Positions 8,406 through 43,308 of a stretch of 64,000 nucleotides of DNA are shown in pieces. A program made the position numbers and the translations under genes. Numbering within the stretch: the stretch's first letter is position 1; every line of letters starts with the position of its first letter. The notes beneath the pieces were generated by a model. It did no database searches, was not told the DNA's origin, and saw nothing but the letters and a program-made list of their open reading frames with translations. Source of the DNA: Knoellia sinensis KCTC 19936 (GTDB lineage Bacteria > Actinomycetota > Actinomycetes > Actinomycetales > Dermatophilaceae); contig NZ_AVPJ01000001.1 of NCBI RefSeq assembly GCF_000768705.1, forward strand, positions 496,001-560,000, in the 5' to 3' direction.

Positions 8406-9108
8406 CGCTGCTGCTCTCCTCGGGTGCTGGTGCCGGGTCGTCCGACGCGTCCGGCTCGTCTGCCGGCAACTCTAGGTGTTGGGCCGCAAGGGCCAGGATC
8501 TCGTCTGCGTCGATCGCGCCGCGACGCAGGATCACCGGCTCGGGCTGGGTGCAGTCGACGATCGTGGAGGGCAGGCCACCGGTGACCGGACCGCCGTCGA
8601 GATAGAACTCCACCGACGCCCCCAACTGGGTGGCTGCGTCGATCACGGTGCGAGAGGCCGGATGTCCGGTGCGGTTCGCACTGCTCACGGCCATCGGCCC
8701 CACGGCCTGAAGAAGCTCGAGCGCGACTTCGTGGTCGGGCATGCGCACAGCCACCGTCCCGCCGGTGTCGCCCAGGTCCCACATGAGCGAGGGCTGCGCC
8801 TTGAGGACGAGCGTGAGGGGGCCGGGCCAGTACTCCTTGATGAGGGCTCGGGCGTAGTCGGGCACGTCGATGGCCAGCCCGTCGACGGTCCGGACGTCCG
8901 CGACGAGGACCGGCGGAGGCATCTCGCGGCCGCGGCCCTTCGCGTCGAGCAGCCGCTGCACCGCGTCGGGCGCGAAGGCATCGGCGCCGATGCCATAGAG
9001 GGTGTCGGTGGGCAGGACGACGAGGTCGCCCTGGCGCACGCCGGCGGTCGCCTTGGCGATGCCGTCCTGACGCCCCTCGGGCGTCGTGCAGTCGAAGACC
9101 GGACTCAT
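8398..9108 (-). CDS. Threonylcarbamoyl-AMP synthase (TsaC/Sua5/YrdC family)
   Basis: Makes threonylcarbamoyl-AMP, the donor for the t6A base next to the anticodon in ANN-reading tRNAs. The 236-residue protein has the YrdC features LVVLPTDTLYGIGADA, LLDAKGRGREMPPPVLV, EYWPGPLTLVL, TVAVRMPDH and AVSSANRTG. A disordered acidic C-terminus (about 25 residues, DEPDASDDPAPAPEESSSDE) replaces the Sua5 domain of longer relatives. Its place downstream of prmC is the normal actinobacterial one, although here a 24-codon gene on the other strand separates them. Confidence 0.93.
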   Translation of the reverse strand: MSPVFDCTTPEGRQDGIAKATAGVRQGDLVVLPTDTLYGIGADAFAPDAVQRLLDAKGRGREMPPPVLVADVRTVDGLAIDVPDYARALIKEYWPGPLTLVLKAQPSLMWDLGDTGGTVAVRMPDHEVALELLQAVGPMAVSSANRTGHPASRTVIDAATQLGASVEFYLDGGPVTGGLPSTIVDCTQPEPVILRRGAIDADEILALAAQHLELPADEPDASDDPAPAPEESSSDE

Positions 9109-38140: not shown

Positions 38141-38313
38141 GACAGGGGACTCCCAACGAGAAGAATGGTGGCGCGACCGACGACCGGTGCGACGTGCCGA
38201 GTCCTTGGTGCGGGACGGCGAGGGGCGGGAGGTGTGCCGCGCCCGGCCATCCTCGCACGTCACCGGCGTGCGCGTCTCTGGCTCGCCGCGTGCTCAATGC
38301 CACAATCGGGGCC

Positions 38314-38673
38314 GTGCCCCTGCCCTCGGTCCCCCGCCCTCGACTCGTTCGAGTGCGCGGGAGGTCCATGGAACCCACGCTGCGCGAAGGCGACCTCCTG
38401 CTCGCCCTGTGGGGCGCTCGTGTTCGTCCGGGCGTCGTGGCCGTCGTCCAGCTTCCGGCGGACGCGTCCGGAACGCCACGACCCGTCTCCGTCAAACGGA
38501 TCGTCGGCGTCGACCCGGAAGCTCGCGACCGGTGGTGGCTCGAGTCCGACAACGCGCGCGAGGGCGTGTCGTCCTTCGAGATCGGGTCGCTGGCCCCCTC
38601 GGACGTCGTGGCGGTGGTGACCACGCGCCTGTGGCCGAGTCCGGGAAAGGTGACTGTGCGGCATACGCCCTGA
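38314..38673 (+). CDS. sodX: Nickel superoxide dismutase maturation protease (S26 family)
   Basis: A 119-residue signal-peptidase-like protein. The catalytic Ser is in RGRSMEPTLREGD near residue 18 and the general-base Lys in RPVSVKRIVGVDPEAR. It has no clear membrane anchor, which fits the SodX type that removes the NiSOD propeptide in the cytosol. It lies 64 bases upstream of sodN, making the role firm by context. The GTG start is chosen because the conserved region begins soon after; weak evidence only for the exact start. Confidence 0.9.
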   Translation: MPLPSVPRPRLVRVRGRSMEPTLREGDLLLALWGARVRPGVVAVVQLPADASGTPRPVSVKRIVGVDPEARDRWWLESDNAREGVSSFEIGSLAPSDVVAVVTTRLWPSPGKVTVRHTP

Positions 38674-38737
38674 CGTGTGGGCCAACCGGCGTTGTAGGTT
38701 GGAACCGGCCCACAACCCACAAAGGAAAGGGATGTTC

Positions 38738-39139
38738 ATGCGCCTCCCCGCTCTCTTCAGCATCACGGACGTCAGTGCCCACTGCGACCTGCCCTGCGGT
38801 GTCTACGACCCCGCGCAGGCCCGCATCGAGGCCGAGTCGATCAAGGCGATCATCGCCAAGGTGGCCGACAACGACGACCCCGACTTCCGGACGCGCGCGA
38901 TCCTCATCAAGGAGCAGCGTTCCCAGCTCGTCAAGGAGCACCTCTGGGTGCTGTGGACCGACTACTTCAAGCCGCCGCACTTCGAGAAGTACCCGAACCT
39001 GCACACGCTGATCAACGAGGCCACCAAGCTGGCCGGCGCTTCGGGCACCAAGGGTGAGCTCGACGCCGCCAAGGCCGACGAGCTCCTCGCGAAGATCGAC
39101 GAGATCGACGCGATCTTCAAGGAGACCAAGAAGGCCTGA
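38738..39139 (+). CDS. sodN: Nickel superoxide dismutase
   Basis: Cytoplasmic enzyme removing superoxide with a nickel centre. The mature protein begins HCDLPCGVYDP, the nickel hook with His1, Cys2 and Cys6, and the rest is a four-helix bundle ending FKETKKA. Starting at MRLPALFSITDVSA gives a 14-residue propeptide, the length in Streptomyces, and puts AGGAAAGG at good spacing; an ATG two codons upstream is the alternative. Cleavage before His is needed for activity and is done by the protease encoded just upstream. I see no Nur or nickel-transport gene nearby. Confidence 0.97.
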   Translation: MRLPALFSITDVSAHCDLPCGVYDPAQARIEAESIKAIIAKVADNDDPDFRTRAILIKEQRSQLVKEHLWVLWTDYFKPPHFEKYPNLHTLINEATKLAGASGTKGELDAAKADELLAKIDEIDAIFKETKKA

Positions 39140-39151
39140 TCACCCTCCGGT

Positions 39152-39196
39152 CATGACGAGGGCCCCGACACTCGCGGTGTCGGGGCCCTCGTCATG
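39152..39196. terminator. Perfect 20-bp hairpin after sodN
   Basis: CATGACGAGGGCCCCGACAC and its exact inverse complement flank a 5-base loop (TCGCG). It lies between sodN and the convergent HD-domain gene and can terminate both. Confidence 0.9.
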
Positions 39197-39229
39197 CCCT
39201 GCAGTCGCGGCCGGCGGCTGGTGCTCGAC

Positions 39230-40528
39230 TCAGGCCCGCCCGGGGCCACGCACGGAGCGCACGAGCGCCTCGACCACCTCGGGGTCGTATTCGTAGCCGA
39301 GTCCCAGGTTGATCCGCTCCAGAGCGGCATCGACCGACGGCGGGTCATTGCGGCCGTGCGAGAAGTCGTCGAACGCGTTGGCGACCTTGATGATCCGACT
39401 CGCCATCGGGACCTGCTCACCCCACTCGCGCACGTGCCGGAACGGCGTGGTCTGGCGCTCCATGAGGTCTGCGACGCGATCGAGGACCTCCGTCCGTCGA
39501 ACGATCCGCGCCCCTTCATTCGCGATCCGACGTTGGTCGTCGGGAGCAGCCATCACCGTGGCACCGTCGGGAATGGGCGTGCGGAGCCCTACTTGGCCGA
39601 GGTCGTGAAGCAGTGCGGCGTACTCGAGGTCCTGGATCTCGTCGGTGTGCAGGCCGATCGTGCGCGCGATGCTGACTGAGCGCGCGGCCACCCTCGACGC
39701 GTGCCCAGCGGGCGTGTAGCCGGCCACCTCAGTGAGCTTGGACAGGGCCGCGATCGTCTGCCTGTAGGTCGCCCGGTTCGCGGCGTAGCGGCGGACCGCG
39801 ACGTTCGTGAGGACCATGGGCAGCAGCCCCAGGGGGAGGGCAACGAGCCCGATGACGGGTGCCAGAAAAGCGACGAGAGGGCCCGCGGCGACGACGCTCA
39901 GGGTCAGGGCCTGGGCCTCTTCGAGCTCCTCACGCCAGGTCGCCAGCACAGGAAGGTGCTTGCGGTGTGCGCGAACCAGCCCGGTGAGCACGACGTCTGC
40001 GTAGAGGCCGGCCGCAGCCGACCCCATCATGACGATGGCGACCAGCCAGGCTGGCCGGTCGTCGTCGAGTTGCCAGCCCCAGACGCCCTGGCTGTCCGAG
40101 GGGCCGATCCGCATGAGGATGGCCGTGATCCCCACGCCCACGATCCGCGCGGCCACGAGATACCACTCGGTCGAGCGTCGCAGGAAGGCCCGCACACCCA
40201 TGGCCAATGCCAGGCCCATCGCAGCGACGAGCGTGACGACCCCCGTCGGCACGTCGAACACGGCGTGTCCGTGCACCGGGCCCAGCACCGCCAACGCAAT
40301 CCCCGAGCCCGTGGCGACAGGAGCCGCAACCCGGCCGGACGGCATACGCACTCGGAACAGCTCACCCGCGGCAATGGCGAGCACGAACGCCACGAGGATC
40401 GCGGAGTGCGCCGCGGCAGCGTCCGCGAGCTGGGGCATCGCCGTCAACAGGGACCACGCGACCGCAGCCGCACCCAGCGACAGGACGAATGCCTCCGTCC
40501 TGCCCATCCTGCCCATCCGGCGAGTCAT
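39230..40528 (-). CDS. Membrane HD-domain phosphohydrolase-like protein (second of pair)
   Basis: A 432-residue protein: seven or eight membrane segments to about residue 245 (for example AILVAFVLAIAAGELF and GVVTLVAAMGLALAMGV), then an HD domain with GHASRVAARSVSIARTIGL and EYAALLHDLGQVGL. The following MASRIIKVANAFDDF and LGYEYDPEVVEAL match the tail of HD-GYP domains, but the HHExxDGxGYP block that defines c-di-GMP phosphodiesterases is missing. So a metal-binding HD site is probable and c-di-GMP cleavage doubtful. It overlaps the upstream HD gene by four bases (ATGA). Confidence 0.8.
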   Translation of the reverse strand: MTRRMGRMGRTEAFVLSLGAAAVAWSLLTAMPQLADAAAAHSAILVAFVLAIAAGELFRVRMPSGRVAAPVATGSGIALAVLGPVHGHAVFDVPTGVVTLVAAMGLALAMGVRAFLRRSTEWYLVAARIVGVGITAILMRIGPSDSQGVWGWQLDDDRPAWLVAIVMMGSAAAGLYADVVLTGLVRAHRKHLPVLATWREELEEAQALTLSVVAAGPLVAFLAPVIGLVALPLGLLPMVLTNVAVRRYAANRATYRQTIAALSKLTEVAGYTPAGHASRVAARSVSIARTIGLHTDEIQDLEYAALLHDLGQVGLRTPIPDGATVMAAPDDQRRIANEGARIVRRTEVLDRVADLMERQTTPFRHVREWGEQVPMASRIIKVANAFDDFSHGRNDPPSVDAALERINLGLGYEYDPEVVEALVRSVRGPGRA

Positions 40529-41772
40529 GACTGCGCCACCGCACTCGATCCCACGGGACCGTCCGTGCCACGCACCACCCGCGCCAGCGCTGCGATGACG
40601 CGGTCGCCATCCGGACCCGGGGTCCTCGACCGCAGACGCGCCAGTGCCTCGGCACTGCCAATGCCGTCTCCACGCATCAGGAGGTCGTAGTCGTCGGCCA
40701 CCTTGACGACGTCCGCGAGCGTGTGGGTGGACCCGTCGGACTGCGCCCGGGCCATCTGCTGCATGACGTCGGACGCACCTGCAAGGAAGGGGAGGTCCTG
40801 CAGCATCGCGGCACCGCGGAGCTCCACGCCCTCCTCGACGTCGGCGCCTTCACTTCCGGGCGCCACGACGACACGCCCGAGGTCGTGGAGGAGCCCCGCG
40901 ATCCTCACGTCGGCCACGTCCTTCGGCCCCAGGCCGAGTTCCTGGGCCATGCCGGCCGAGAGTGACGACACGCGCGCGCTGTGGCCCTCGAGGTCCGGTG
41001 CTCGTGTCTCGAGCGCCGCCACGAGGGCACCGAGCGCTCGCTCGCGCGCCTCTCGCTCCTCGCCGTATTGCATCAAGGCCCACCGGGCGCCGGCGAGCGG
41101 AGCGAGCGCGACCAGGACGGCCACCGGACCCATGTCACCGGGGATCCACATGATCACCACGAGGAACGCGATGATCCCGTAGGCGAACTGCGTCAGGCCC
41201 GAACTCGTGAACATGTCGACGAGCTGAAGCCGCATGGGCACGCCCTCGGAGATGCGGATGACTCCTGCGACGAGCACGGCATTGACGACGAGGTTGACGA
41301 CATCGGCCACCACGATGGGCAATCCCACATGGCCCAGCAATTCGCCGGCCCCTTCGAGCCCAGCGAGGGCGGTACCAAAGATGCCACCCGCCCACGCATA
41401 AGCGAGGCCACCGATCATCGCGGAGATGGAATGCATGGCCATGTTGAAGATGCGTCGGCGCAGTGGTAGCCGTCGTGTGGTCAACCCAGTCATGGCCAAG
41501 CCAACGACGCCGGCACCCAGCACCCCGACGATAGGGATCGCGGCCAGCACGACGACGTTGTCGGCGGTGAAATGACTCCGCCCGTCACTACTCGTCGGGA
41601 GCCACCAGGTCAACGCTCCGAGGAGCGCGAGCACCACCAGACCCGTCCAGTCCGATGGCCAGCCGTAAAGCCGGTAGACGAGGACGCTCCAGAGTCCACA
41701 AAAAAGGACGACCCCACTGACGTAGAGCGTCGTGCCGTGCTGCCTGACCCAGCTGTCGGCAGCCTGGTTCAC
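40525..41772 (-). CDS. Membrane HD-domain phosphohydrolase-like protein (first of pair)
   Basis: A 415-residue protein from the chosen GTG start (MNQAADSWVRQHGTT), which lies 22 bases after the stop of the GWSW peptide gene; the longer open frame would overlap that gene. Six or seven membrane segments (LYVSGVVLFCGLWSVLVY, TGLVVLALLGALTWWL, VVLAAIPIVGVLGAGVVGLA and others) lead to a cytoplasmic HD domain with EGHSARVSSLSAGMAQELGL and RIAGLLHDLGRVVV. ADVVKVADDYDLLM resembles the post-GYP helix of HD-GYP domains, yet the GYP block is absent. The N-terminal helices may be a sensor for an outside signal; the peptide gene next door is the obvious candidate. Confidence 0.8.
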   Translation of the reverse strand: MNQAADSWVRQHGTTLYVSGVVLFCGLWSVLVYRLYGWPSDWTGLVVLALLGALTWWLPTSSDGRSHFTADNVVVLAAIPIVGVLGAGVVGLAMTGLTTRRLPLRRRIFNMAMHSISAMIGGLAYAWAGGIFGTALAGLEGAGELLGHVGLPIVVADVVNLVVNAVLVAGVIRISEGVPMRLQLVDMFTSSGLTQFAYGIIAFLVVIMWIPGDMGPVAVLVALAPLAGARWALMQYGEEREARERALGALVAALETRAPDLEGHSARVSSLSAGMAQELGLGPKDVADVRIAGLLHDLGRVVVAPGSEGADVEEGVELRGAAMLQDLPFLAGASDVMQQMARAQSDGSTHTLADVVKVADDYDLLMRGDGIGSAEALARLRSRTPGPDGDRVIAALARVVRGTDGPVGSSAVAQS

Positions 41773-41794
41773 CGAGCGTCGCGAAAGGCCGTGA

Positions 41795-41974
41795 CTACCA
41801 GGACCAGCCCTGCGCCGACCATGACCAACCGTCAGCCGCCCAGGACCAGCCGGTGGCTGTGGTGTCAGTTCCGCCCGTGGTCCCGGACTCATCGGCCGCG
41901 TGGGCGGTGGAGGCGACGAACGTCGAGAGAGCCGCTAGTGCAAGCGTTGCGGCGGCGAGTCGGATGGCGCGCAT
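41795..41974 (-). CDS. Secreted peptide precursor with three GWSW repeats
   Basis: A 59-codon gene. Residues 1-26 are a clean signal peptide: MRAIR, a hydrophobic core LAAATLALAALSTFVAS, and a TAHA-AD cleavage site. The mature part (about 33 residues) is a Ser/Thr/Gly/Asp linker followed by three GWSW units at residues 42-45, 49-52 and 56-59, the last being the C-terminus. AAAGG lies eight to nine bases upstream of the ATG, and a TTGAAA-18-TAATCA promoter-like pair lies about 34 bases above that. The stop is 22 bases ahead of the first HD-domain gene, on the same strand. I recognise no family. A secreted signal, structural peptide or sensor ligand are all possible. Confidence 0.75.
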   Translation of the reverse strand: MRAIRLAAATLALAALSTFVASTAHAADESGTTGGTDTTATGWSWAADGWSWSAQGWSW

Positions 41975-42014
41975 TGGGGGAACCTTTCATTCATCCCGGC
42001 CAGGGCGCCGGGAC

Positions 42015-42044
42015 TGATTACGGGCCAGTCTCCCACGGTTTCAA
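42015..42044 (-). promoter_or_regulatory. Candidate promoter of the peptide-HD operon
   Basis: On the minus strand TTGAAA (42044-42039) and TAATCA (42020-42015) are 18 bases apart, close to the -35/-10 spacing of housekeeping sigma factors; the -10 lacks its final T. It would put the transcript start about 34 bases before the peptide ATG. Confidence 0.35.
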
Positions 42045-42141
42045 CCTGTGCGACAATGTTAGAGACGAGTGATCTGTGGAGCTCTAGGCATCCGTGCAGG
42101 GCACCTGGTCACAGTTCATCCCCCGATCTCGAGGAGTTCCC

Positions 42142-42216
42142 ATGAGCAAGCGCGCCCGCAAGCGCCGCTCGCGCAAGGGCAACAAGGCCAACCACGGCCG
42201 TAAGCCCAACGCCTGA
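42142..42216 (+). CDS. 50S ribosomal protein bL37
   Basis: A 24-residue, extremely basic peptide: MSKRARKRRSRKGNKANHGR followed by KPNA. It has the same length and plan as bL37 of Mycobacterium smegmatis, an actinobacterial ribosomal protein bound to 23S rRNA, including the KANHGK/RPN ending. GAGGAG lies eight bases before the ATG. A perfect hairpin terminator with a GCAA loop follows, so the gene is complete and monocistronic. Confidence 0.88.
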   Translation: MSKRARKRRSRKGNKANHGRKPNA

Positions 42217-42234
42217 GCAGCGCGCAGCAACTGA

Positions 42235-42270
42235 CGAAGGGGCGACCACCGCAAGGTGGTCGCCCCTTCG
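42235..42270. terminator. Terminator between bL37 and rsrA
   Basis: CGAAGGGGCGACCACC and its inverse complement form a 16-base perfect stem closed by a GCAA tetraloop; two further outer pairs are possible. It lies between convergent genes. Confidence 0.9.
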
Positions 42271-42289
42271 TCGTGCGCAGAAGTCGGCG

Positions 42290-42574
42290 TCAGCCGTCGA
42301 GTTCGAGTCGCACCATCGTGATGCGCTGCACGACCTGGAGGCGGAGGGAGTCCGGGCAGGTCTCCGAGCTGCTGGACCGGCGGACCGCGTCCTTGACGGC
42401 GCGGTCGAGGTCGTGCTCGTGCAGGCAGGGACCGCACGCCTCGAGGTGCTCGGCGACCCGGGCGACATCGCTCGGCTGGAGCTCACCGTCGAGGTACTCG
42501 TAGATGCGGTGCAGGACCTCGGAGCAGTCCGCGTGTTCCTGCAGGTGCGCCTGCACGTTGTTGTCGTCGTTCAC
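42290..42574 (-). CDS. rsrA: Zinc-binding redox-sensing anti-sigma factor (RsrA type)
   Basis: A 94-residue protein that holds the SigH/SigR factor inactive until disulfide stress oxidises its thiols. The ZAS zinc motif is HLEACGPC (His43, Cys47, Cys50), with Cys17 in HADCSEVL as the partner cysteine. The gene overlaps the end of the sigma factor gene by four bases (ATGA), the standard arrangement. Cys73 is an extra cysteine outside the motif. In this group the sensing is linked to the mycothiol pool. Confidence 0.92.
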
Positions 42575-43194
42575 GACGAGACCTCCTTGCCGAAACCGCG
42601 CTCGGCGGCATACTCCGTCAGCATTTCGCGGAGCTGGCGACGACCGCGGTGGAGTCGTGACATCACGGTGCCAATGGGCGTGCCCATGATGTCGGCGATC
42701 TCTTTGTAGGCGAATCCCTCGACGTCAGCGAGATAGACCGCCATCCGGAAATCCTCGGGCAACTCCTGGAGCGCCCGCTTGATCTCGTTGTCGGGCAGGT
42801 GGTCGAGTGCTTCGGCCTCGGCCGACTTCAGGCCCGAACTCGTGTGCGACTCGGCACGCACGAGCTGGTAGTCCTCGACCTCCGCGGCGTCGGACTGCTG
42901 GGGTTCACGCTGCTTCTTGCGATACGTGTTGATGTAGGTATTCGTCAGGATGCGATACATCCACGCGCGCAGGTTGGTGCCCGGCTTGAACTGGTGGAAC
43001 GCGGCGAACGCCTTGGCATAGGTCTCCTGAAGGAGGTCCTCGGCATCGGCCGGGTTGCGCGTCGTGCGCATCGCGGCGGCATACAGCTGGTCGAGGAGCG
43101 GCAACGCCTCCGCCTCGAAGCGCGCCTGTCGTTGCTCTGGCGTCTCGTTCGCGAGGTCCACGCCGGTCTCGTCTGAGGTCGTCTGCGGTGTCAT
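42571..43194 (-). CDS. sigH: ECF-like sigma factor SigH/SigR
   Basis: RNA polymerase sigma factor for thiol-oxidative and heat stress. The 207-residue form starting [11 protein letters not shown] has region 2 ([20 protein letters not shown], then [20 protein letters not shown]) and region 4 ([38 protein letters not shown]). An in-frame ATG 18 codons upstream gives a longer form, which matters because Streptomyces makes a long, unstable SigR isoform from an upstream start. A GGAAT-18-GTT promoter, the SigR consensus, lies upstream, so autoregulation is likely. Confidence 0.94.
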
Positions 43195-43308
43195 TGCACT
43201 CCAGCCTAGACCTGTCTCCGCTGGGGACGTCGTGTGCAGCACGAGCACGGGCGAACCTCTCTGACGACGGCGGGCACCGCTGAAGGCGGCGCCGGTGACT
43301 CCGTGTCC

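Follow-up and report, generated by a model that had tools for sequence, protein, structure and literature searches.

Why does a gene of 59 codons, with a signal-like leader and a tryptophan-rich tail, lie just upstream of two genes for membrane HD proteins in Knoellia sinensis KCTC 19936? The three genes are on the minus strand of a 64,000-nucleotide stretch of this genome (contig NZ_AVPJ01000001.1, positions 496,001 to 560,000), referred to below as the window, and the two membrane proteins are called HDA and HDB. An earlier note on this DNA had offered two ideas: the peptide is a signal sensed by a receptor, or it docks on the HD proteins. What we observed is how the genes are arranged, that this arrangement is conserved, and that the peptide is under selection and carries repeats. 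The adjacency, the selection, the repeats and the predicted fold of HDA leave the two proposed ideas as the best ones, although the three GWSW units and the secretion that the note described are not family-wide. That the Trp tail is a peptide ligand of HDA controlling the HD pair is a reading to which we give just under an even chance.

The peptide gene (41795..41974, minus strand) runs from an ATG through 59 codons to a TAG stop, and the ribosome site GAAAGG (41983..41988) lies 8 nt 5' of the ATG. Its translation is MRAIRLAAATLALAALSTFVASTAHA (signal part) followed by ADESGTTGGTDTTATGWSWAADGWSWSAQGWSW (33-residue mature part). The first 26 residues (41897..41974), ending in STAHA, showed n-, h- and AxA regions and were judged by eye to be a probable Sec signal. 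GWSW occurs at residues 42, 49 and 56, with a spacing of seven. The first unit (41840..41851) is encoded by GGC TGG TCC TGG, the second (41819..41830) by GGT TGG TCA TGG with two synonymous differences, and the third (41798..41809) is C-terminal. The GTG start of HDA (41772) follows the peptide stop after 22 nt, and the HDA and HDB genes overlap by the four bases ATGA. The short gene with its signal-like N-terminus and ribosome site, and the two overlapping HD genes behind it, were confirmed as the note had described them, with Pfam HD above cut-off in both proteins. The whole genome contained one real copy of the peptide gene; three other matches were weak (E 0.002 to 8) and lay in frames of 112-734 aa.

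Recurrence of the Trp tail upstream of HDA

A search of 98 genomes gave HDA homologues in 56 (E 1e-10), and a collection extending to other families, orders and classes comprised 220 loci with an HDA/HDB match. Removal of 9 single-ORF (open reading frame) or fused loci, 1 scoring <150, 29 with <260 nt upstream and 32 with a repeated HDA left 149 non-redundant HDA loci (given L numbers below), which are not independent, many being close relatives. Upstream ORFs were selected by a fixed rule (12-110 aa, ATG or GTG start, a ribosome site, and an end within -200..+40 of HDA) and compared with 1204 control ORFs, namely other large ORFs of the window and 80 loci, spurious frames included. The strict C-terminal motif was present in 106/149 HDA loci versus 5/1204 controls, which is more than chance would give. 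W-x-W within the last eight residues was found in 66/149 loci versus 1/1204 controls, and any Trp within the last six residues in 116/149 versus 74/1204. After curation, 136 of the 149 loci showed a short upstream Trp-tail ORF; 124 of these peptides were picked automatically and 12 accepted by eye, the start or ORF was replaced by eye in 9 further entries, and certain automatic picks, e.g., L068 and L212, are doubtful.

All eight congeners examined had an intact signal/Trp-tail ORF before HDA, whereas frameshifts at this place were what the note had named as a sign of a spurious frame. Their tails are GWTW ×2, GWQW, GWQW, GWQW ×2, GWQW, TWQW, DWTW and GWAWNG. Three GWSW units seven residues apart therefore describe the window species but not the genus, in which two units (2/8) or one (6/8) are found. 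The recurring feature is one C-terminal Trp core, typically phi-x-W, and the three units are particular to the window species. A spurious ORF would be short, and open frames arise readily in GC-rich DNA such as this, but here the frame, the core and the ribosome site all recur; this explanation is refuted at the sequence level, and we leave it a negligible chance.

No peptide was recognized in 13/149 loci. Nine of these belong to Streptomyces-like genomes; among the remaining four is L144, in whose upstream DNA a GRVSWI-like stretch was seen by eye, with no ORF fitting the rule. Two further Streptomyces-like loci (L257 and L258) also had no recognized Trp-tail peptide. Among seven loci outside the class, five (L250-L254) had short ORFs ending in QARW, HARW, NTTWH, HLRW and GVHWR, and no short Trp-tail ORF was recognized in L255 and L256. 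Adjacent peptide and HDA genes are found repeatedly in several orders of actinobacteria and in further classes of this phylum.

The 136 peptides have a median length of 30 aa (range 9-76). In 106 of them, at most two residues separate the last Trp from the C-terminus. Two positions ahead of this Trp, the residues found among the 136 include W (62), V (28), S (12), I (10) and F (6). Trp makes up 259/1629 residues in the last twelve positions versus 44/2846 elsewhere. The window peptide and 8 others (or 9 with a DNA reference) gave no Pfam or NCBIfam profile match above cut-off, which we attribute to their very small size, and no description of the Trp-tail peptide was found in the openly licensed literature. 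The note knew of no described family of this kind, which held for Pfam, NCBIfam and open-access literature, and the peptide family and its link to HDA/HDB appear to be new.

Repeated cores, selection and N-terminal classes

Fifteen loci carried precursors with two to six exact core copies, and the cores were identical within a precursor but mostly different between lineages. They are GWSW ×3 (window), GWTW ×2, GWQW ×2, RGWGWGG ×2, AWSW ×3 (in two of three tandem genes), PLGWDWGA ×2, TWWWHPSP ×2, SRFWWYHSA ×2, FTGWIP ×2, NIDWA ×6, SVLTWRP ×4, GYTWQG ×4, TWHWNP ×2, RGWTWTG ×2 and GYHNWEPKA ×4; at the last locus a second ORF has ×5, and three clusters of copies lie before its HDA. Synonymous codon differences inside identical cores were present in 11/15 repeat loci (in the window, four codon comparisons differ), and the spacers, where present, often differed in amino acids. 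Since cores were defined as exact repeats, non-synonymous changes inside them could not be counted. At L024, L117 and L094, a single HDA is preceded by two or three Trp-tail precursor ORFs in tandem.

The secreted precursor of yeast alpha-factor also holds several identical cores separated by spacers; however, it is eukaryotic, and no processing signals were recognized in our precursors. Multi-core precursors, tandem precursor ORFs and aromatic cores could also belong to a bacteriocin or a ribosomally synthesized and post-translationally modified peptide (RiPP), with HDA and HDB as immunity or processing proteins, and Trp-x-Trp cores recall cross-linked RiPPs. We regard this as very improbable. 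No RiPP-modification family was found in the ten neighboring window ORFs scanned (other loci were not searched systematically), and we know of no HD-GYP immunity protein. Moreover, homologues of sigR and rsrA lie upstream on the same strand in 112/121 loci with at least 2.6 kb of upstream sequence (one of the two in 1 locus, neither in 8), a setting unlike a bacteriocin island.

Orthologous peptides were compared by their proportions of non-synonymous (pN) and synonymous (pS) differences. Among 24 pairs of equal length computed, 2 were identical, and pN was below pS in 20 of the 22 that differed. Examples of pN/pS are 0.045/0.408, 0.060/0.346 and 0.030/0.165 for the Thermobifida type and 0.073/0.634, 0.155/0.300 and 0.127/0.420 for the MKKI type. 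In Thermobifida (L116), the tail ends in TGWTWW. The exceptions were L141-L205 (0.211/0.158) and L109-L112, which differ by a single non-synonymous and no synonymous change. Judged from these substitution patterns, the peptide is under protein-level selection.

A simple hydropathy rule sorted the 136 peptides into four N-terminal classes: signal with tail (26), short hydrophobic (49), amphipathic of the MKKIVSAVEQFL type (22) and plain (39). The earlier note had called the peptide secreted; a signal-like N-terminus was indeed present in the window and its congeners, but secretion cannot be assumed for the whole family, because in the 39 plain peptides the N-terminus is neither signal-like nor hydrophobic nor amphipathic. 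A FastTree phylogeny of the 149 HDAs showed 4 changes in the presence of the peptide and 27 in the N-terminal class, with absence counted as a class. The N-terminus interchanges while the Trp tail stays; in our reading, the tail is the functional part and its carrier can be exchanged. In 78 peptides, charge was compared on the two sides of a hydrophobic segment; the N side was more positive in 54 and the C side in 6, with 18 ties, which by the positive-inside rule would place the tail outside.

These N-termini also bear on the second idea, in which the product is a cis-acting membrane micropeptide: a small regulatory subunit that is not released but attaches by its Trp tail to the cell's own HDA or HDB, several copies giving avidity. 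Known micropeptides regulate their neighbors by such docking, the gene adjacency is recurrent, and N-terminal helices would keep the peptide at the membrane. Signal-less peptides could act from the cytosol, and for peptides without any export signal we prefer this explanation. In Knoellia and its relatives, however, the signal-like N-termini with AxA are followed by tails of 15-35 residues, and multi-copy cores, tandem precursors and, at some loci, gap hairpins fit an excess ligand better than a stoichiometric subunit. For the family as a whole, we consider a docking subunit rather unlikely.

HDA and HDB as putative receptor and hydrolase

HDA (415 aa, 40525..41772, minus strand) consists of a membrane domain and an HD-GYP-type domain and is HdgA-like. 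Its residues 242-404 (40561..41049) have the HD-GYP fold, and the motif HHE..DGxGYP was not found in the window protein. The GYP pattern was kept in 95/149 HDAs and is absent in the window's genus. HDB (432 aa, 39230..40528, minus strand) is HdgB-like, with a membrane domain and an HD domain in which a PYRxVRE-type sequence stands in place of GYP. Pfam HD_5 passed its cut-off in HDB and narrowly missed it in HDA. H276, H308, D309 and D388 of HDB were invariant in 55 aligned sequences and, by analogy, may serve as metal ligands. HDA ended in an ATGA, GTGA or TTGA overlap in 139/149 loci, and an HD-containing ORF of >300 aa followed it in 52/56 loci; in L067, HDB was found separately, and L084 ends at the contig end. 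In L056 and L064, HDA and HDB appear fused into one ORF (969 and 994 aa, respectively) that carries both HD motifs. We also considered a link between signal-type peptides and GYP loss in HDA; 22/26 signal-type loci have no GYP, yet the tree offers just 3 independent pairs, and we draw no conclusion from them.

Residues 32-217 of HDA (41122..41679) showed the S-component helix arrangement in the predicted structure, and no membrane protein other than S components was among the 50 matches listed for this region, although other folds are possible. The membrane domain is thus predicted to have the S-component fold of energy-coupling factor (ECF) transporters, which binds ligands and also occurs in receptors. 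An extra N-terminal helix and an S-component-like membrane domain joined to a cytoplasmic signaling domain are likewise described for the 5TMR histidine kinases such as BtsS, for which pyruvate is the ligand named (PMC11109136). In contrast to our loci, an HD-GYP output with a neighboring peptide gene is not mentioned in the main text of that source, where "HD domain" occurs 0 times (PMC11109136).

A closer counterpart of the pair is HdgA/HdgB of Streptomyces venezuelae (vnz24090/vnz24095), described in the relevant sections of PMC6205966 as adjacent genes, very likely in one operon, whose products were in the membrane fraction. HdgA is given there as a 6TM-HD-GYP protein and HdgB as a 6TM protein with a degenerate HD-GYP domain without GYP; no role in developmental control was reported, and activating signals were likely missing under the tested conditions (PMC6205966). 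According to passages of a second source, both are poorly expressed and HdgB is unlikely to hydrolyze cyclic di-GMP (PMC13232838). HDA and HDB are likewise adjacent membrane proteins of the HD-GYP fold with a degenerate second member, the window's first gene being without GYP too, and Streptomyces-like genomes have the order sigR-rsrA-HDA-HDB. These genomes differ in that no Trp-tail peptide was recognized before the pair in 9/9 Streptomyces-like loci and two more. From architecture and position, HDA and HDB are probably orthologues of HdgA and HdgB, so that these components themselves would be known.

The peptide-less Streptomyces-like proteins allowed a comparison along HDA. Up to position 235, at least 80% of the HDAs with a peptide agree at 26 positions, and 11 of these were kept by at most one of the nine peptide-less proteins; from 250 on, the same applied to 1 of 35 positions. 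In HDB, such loss occurred at only 4/23 listed membrane positions. The sequence comparison suggests that absence of the peptide goes with change in the sensor part of HDA and not in its enzyme part. Asn occupies both 110 and 164 (N110 and N164) in 136/136 peptide-bearing and 0/9 peptide-less Streptomyces-like HDAs.

In the ligand reading, the gene would encode the precursor of a ligand whose active part is the short C-terminal core, typically phi-x-W and here GWSW in three copies. The Knoellia precursor would be exported by Sec, and its tail, whole or cut into units, would bind an extracellular-facing pocket of the predicted S-component-like domain. Binding may alter the HDA-HDB pair and hence nucleotide hydrolysis and a nucleotide second messenger. 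Because HDA has no GYP in the window's genus, the hydrolysis would probably be performed by the intact HD site of HDB; in lineages whose HDA keeps HHE..DGxGYP, HDA may itself hydrolyze a cyclic dinucleotide.

Very short precursors with hydrophobic or amphipathic leaders, a Trp-containing core (in XIP) and an adjacent receptor gene are features of the SHP/XIP-Rgg systems of streptococci, and our loci resemble them, with a putative receptor gene. The receptor there, however, is a cytoplasmic RRNPP regulator, whereas in our loci a membrane HD protein would take this part; no RRNPP-type cytoplasmic TPR receptor was found beside the peptide among the downstream genes, which encode membrane HD proteins, or the other window neighbors scanned. 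AgrD-AgrC and ComX-ComP also pair a peptide gene with a multi-pass membrane receptor, but they use histidine kinases and dedicated processing enzymes instead of HD neighbors, and no Agr/Com-type histidine kinase was found among the window neighbors scanned.

Several points weigh against a ligand or against too strong a reading of the HDA comparison. Most of the evidence for it is shared with the docking micropeptide, and 39/136 peptides (29%) have no membrane-directing N-terminus by the simple rule. The nine peptide-less Streptomyces-like HDAs form one group, and four other peptide-less loci keep all or most of the covarying HDA positions. N110/N164 as a peptide-specific site was weakened by L255 and L256, which keep both residues with no recognized peptide; their HDAs are without F109, the aromatic residue at 198 and R230.

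If the tail is a ligand of HDA, peptide signaling would gain a new type of receptor, the S-component fold on an HD-GYP enzyme, and, at a SigR-type stress locus, peptide sensing would be tied to nucleotide second messengers. HdgA and HdgB are reported as expressed membrane proteins with neither a developmental phenotype nor a known signal, and a ligand encoded beside the pair in most of the other actinobacteria examined would provide a directly testable input for them. More tentatively, and at somewhat unfavorable odds, the loci may represent an unrecognized class of cell-cell or self-sensing across Actinomycetota, in which ribosomal peptides with Trp-ended cores of ~4-7 residues would act on receptors with the S-component fold, which in turn drive HD/HD-GYP nucleotide hydrolases, the genes lying downstream of sigR-rsrA and the cores diverging from lineage to lineage as pherotypes do.

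The peptide-HDA gap, upstream genes and RNA elements

The gap between peptide and HDA ranged from 0 to 168 nt. In the first 60 of 124 loci, the segment from the peptide end to HDA was predicted to be more stably folded than the controls, with a mean folding z score of -1.16 versus -0.40 in control gene segments (medians -0.66 versus -0.28). A long GC-rich stem without a T tract lay wholly inside the gap in L100, L108, L111 and L097, and only 1/124 gaps contained a T tract of at least five. In other loci, e.g., L128, L005 (the window's locus), L142 and L156, the predicted folds paired the ORF end with the gap or the HDA start. A stem inside the gap would fit a higher output of peptide than of receptor, and ORF-end pairing would fit translational control; neither is general.

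The pairing of the ORF end in such loci would also suit a regulatory nascent peptide, a leader ORF whose ribosomes stall at the C-terminal core to control HDA translation. A short upstream ORF with a variable N-terminus and conserved residues beside the stop agrees with such a leader, which would explain the C-terminal conservation, and signal or membrane helices also occur in known arrest peptides (for the class, PMC7897499). The Sec/YidC arrest peptides (PMC7897499, PMC10987492) likewise combine a short ORF upstream of a membrane-related gene with a conserved C-terminus; however, their motif is different, our cores are repeated, and the targets here are not concerned with protein localization. 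No RAPP-like arrest motif was found, the listed tails ending in phi-x-W-type cores. Up to six identical internal cores with spacers are unexpected of a stall site, the gap to HDA is variable, the main stem is wholly inside the gap in L100, L108, L111 and L097, and the HD pair exists without the peptide in Streptomyces-like genomes. Translational arrest is thus distinctly unlikely in our judgment.

In the window, the genes upstream of the peptide are, on the minus strand, an rsrA-like anti-sigma gene (42290..42574, Pfam zf-HC2) and a sigR-like sigma factor gene (42571..43248, Pfam Sigma70_r2 and r4), both named by resemblance. The median distance from the rsrA end to HDA was 797 nt. A sigma-70 pattern occurred in the 180 nt upstream of the peptide in 7/124 loci versus 2.2 expected. 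A SigR-type promoter in the same interval (2/124 versus 1.4 expected), a BldD pattern (0/124, 0.6 expected) and a WhiG pattern (0/124) were rejected. The promoter-like pair claimed before the window gene was not confirmed, the locus being in neither the sigma-70 nor the SigR pattern list. No known riboswitch precedes the peptide in the 17 loci searched against Rfam at gathering score, and in positions 39000-43300 of the window the one match was to a microRNA family, below threshold and attributable to chance (E 0.98). In L128, a c-di-AMP riboswitch (RF00379, 51.4 bits) lies at 8886-9040, ~3 kb downstream of the HD pair.

A structured element of the form AGCGRAGCGGA - stem - AGCGR - stem starts ~55-90 nt before the peptide start in 24 sequences (L128, L130, L213, L221-L233, L115, L045, L054 and L250-L254); it was not found in the window. 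All seven of its pairs showed compensatory changes, and 94.6% of cells were paired versus 72.0% in shuffles. A covariance model detected 32 places at E < 1e-10 in 31/197 class genomes, of which 24 were within 1.7 kb of the operon's HDB on the same contig. The other 8 were on other contigs, and all six examined had a Trp-containing short ORF next to them. The element matched no Rfam family at gathering score and is a candidate cis-regulatory RNA of the peptide-HDA-HDB operon.

Two further observations concern the window's flanks. Antisense between rsrA and the peptide gene, positions 42142-42216 (plus strand) encode the small basic protein MSKRARKRRSRKGNKANHGRKPNA, which had no Pfam match and which we take to be bS22/AURKAIP1-like; a homologue is antisense in 62/121 loci. 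Beyond HDB, positions 38194-39139 (plus strand) hold an ORF with sub-threshold signal-peptidase/S24 similarity that adjoins a nickel superoxide dismutase gene (Sod_Ni), an arrangement seen in known sodX-sodN pairs.

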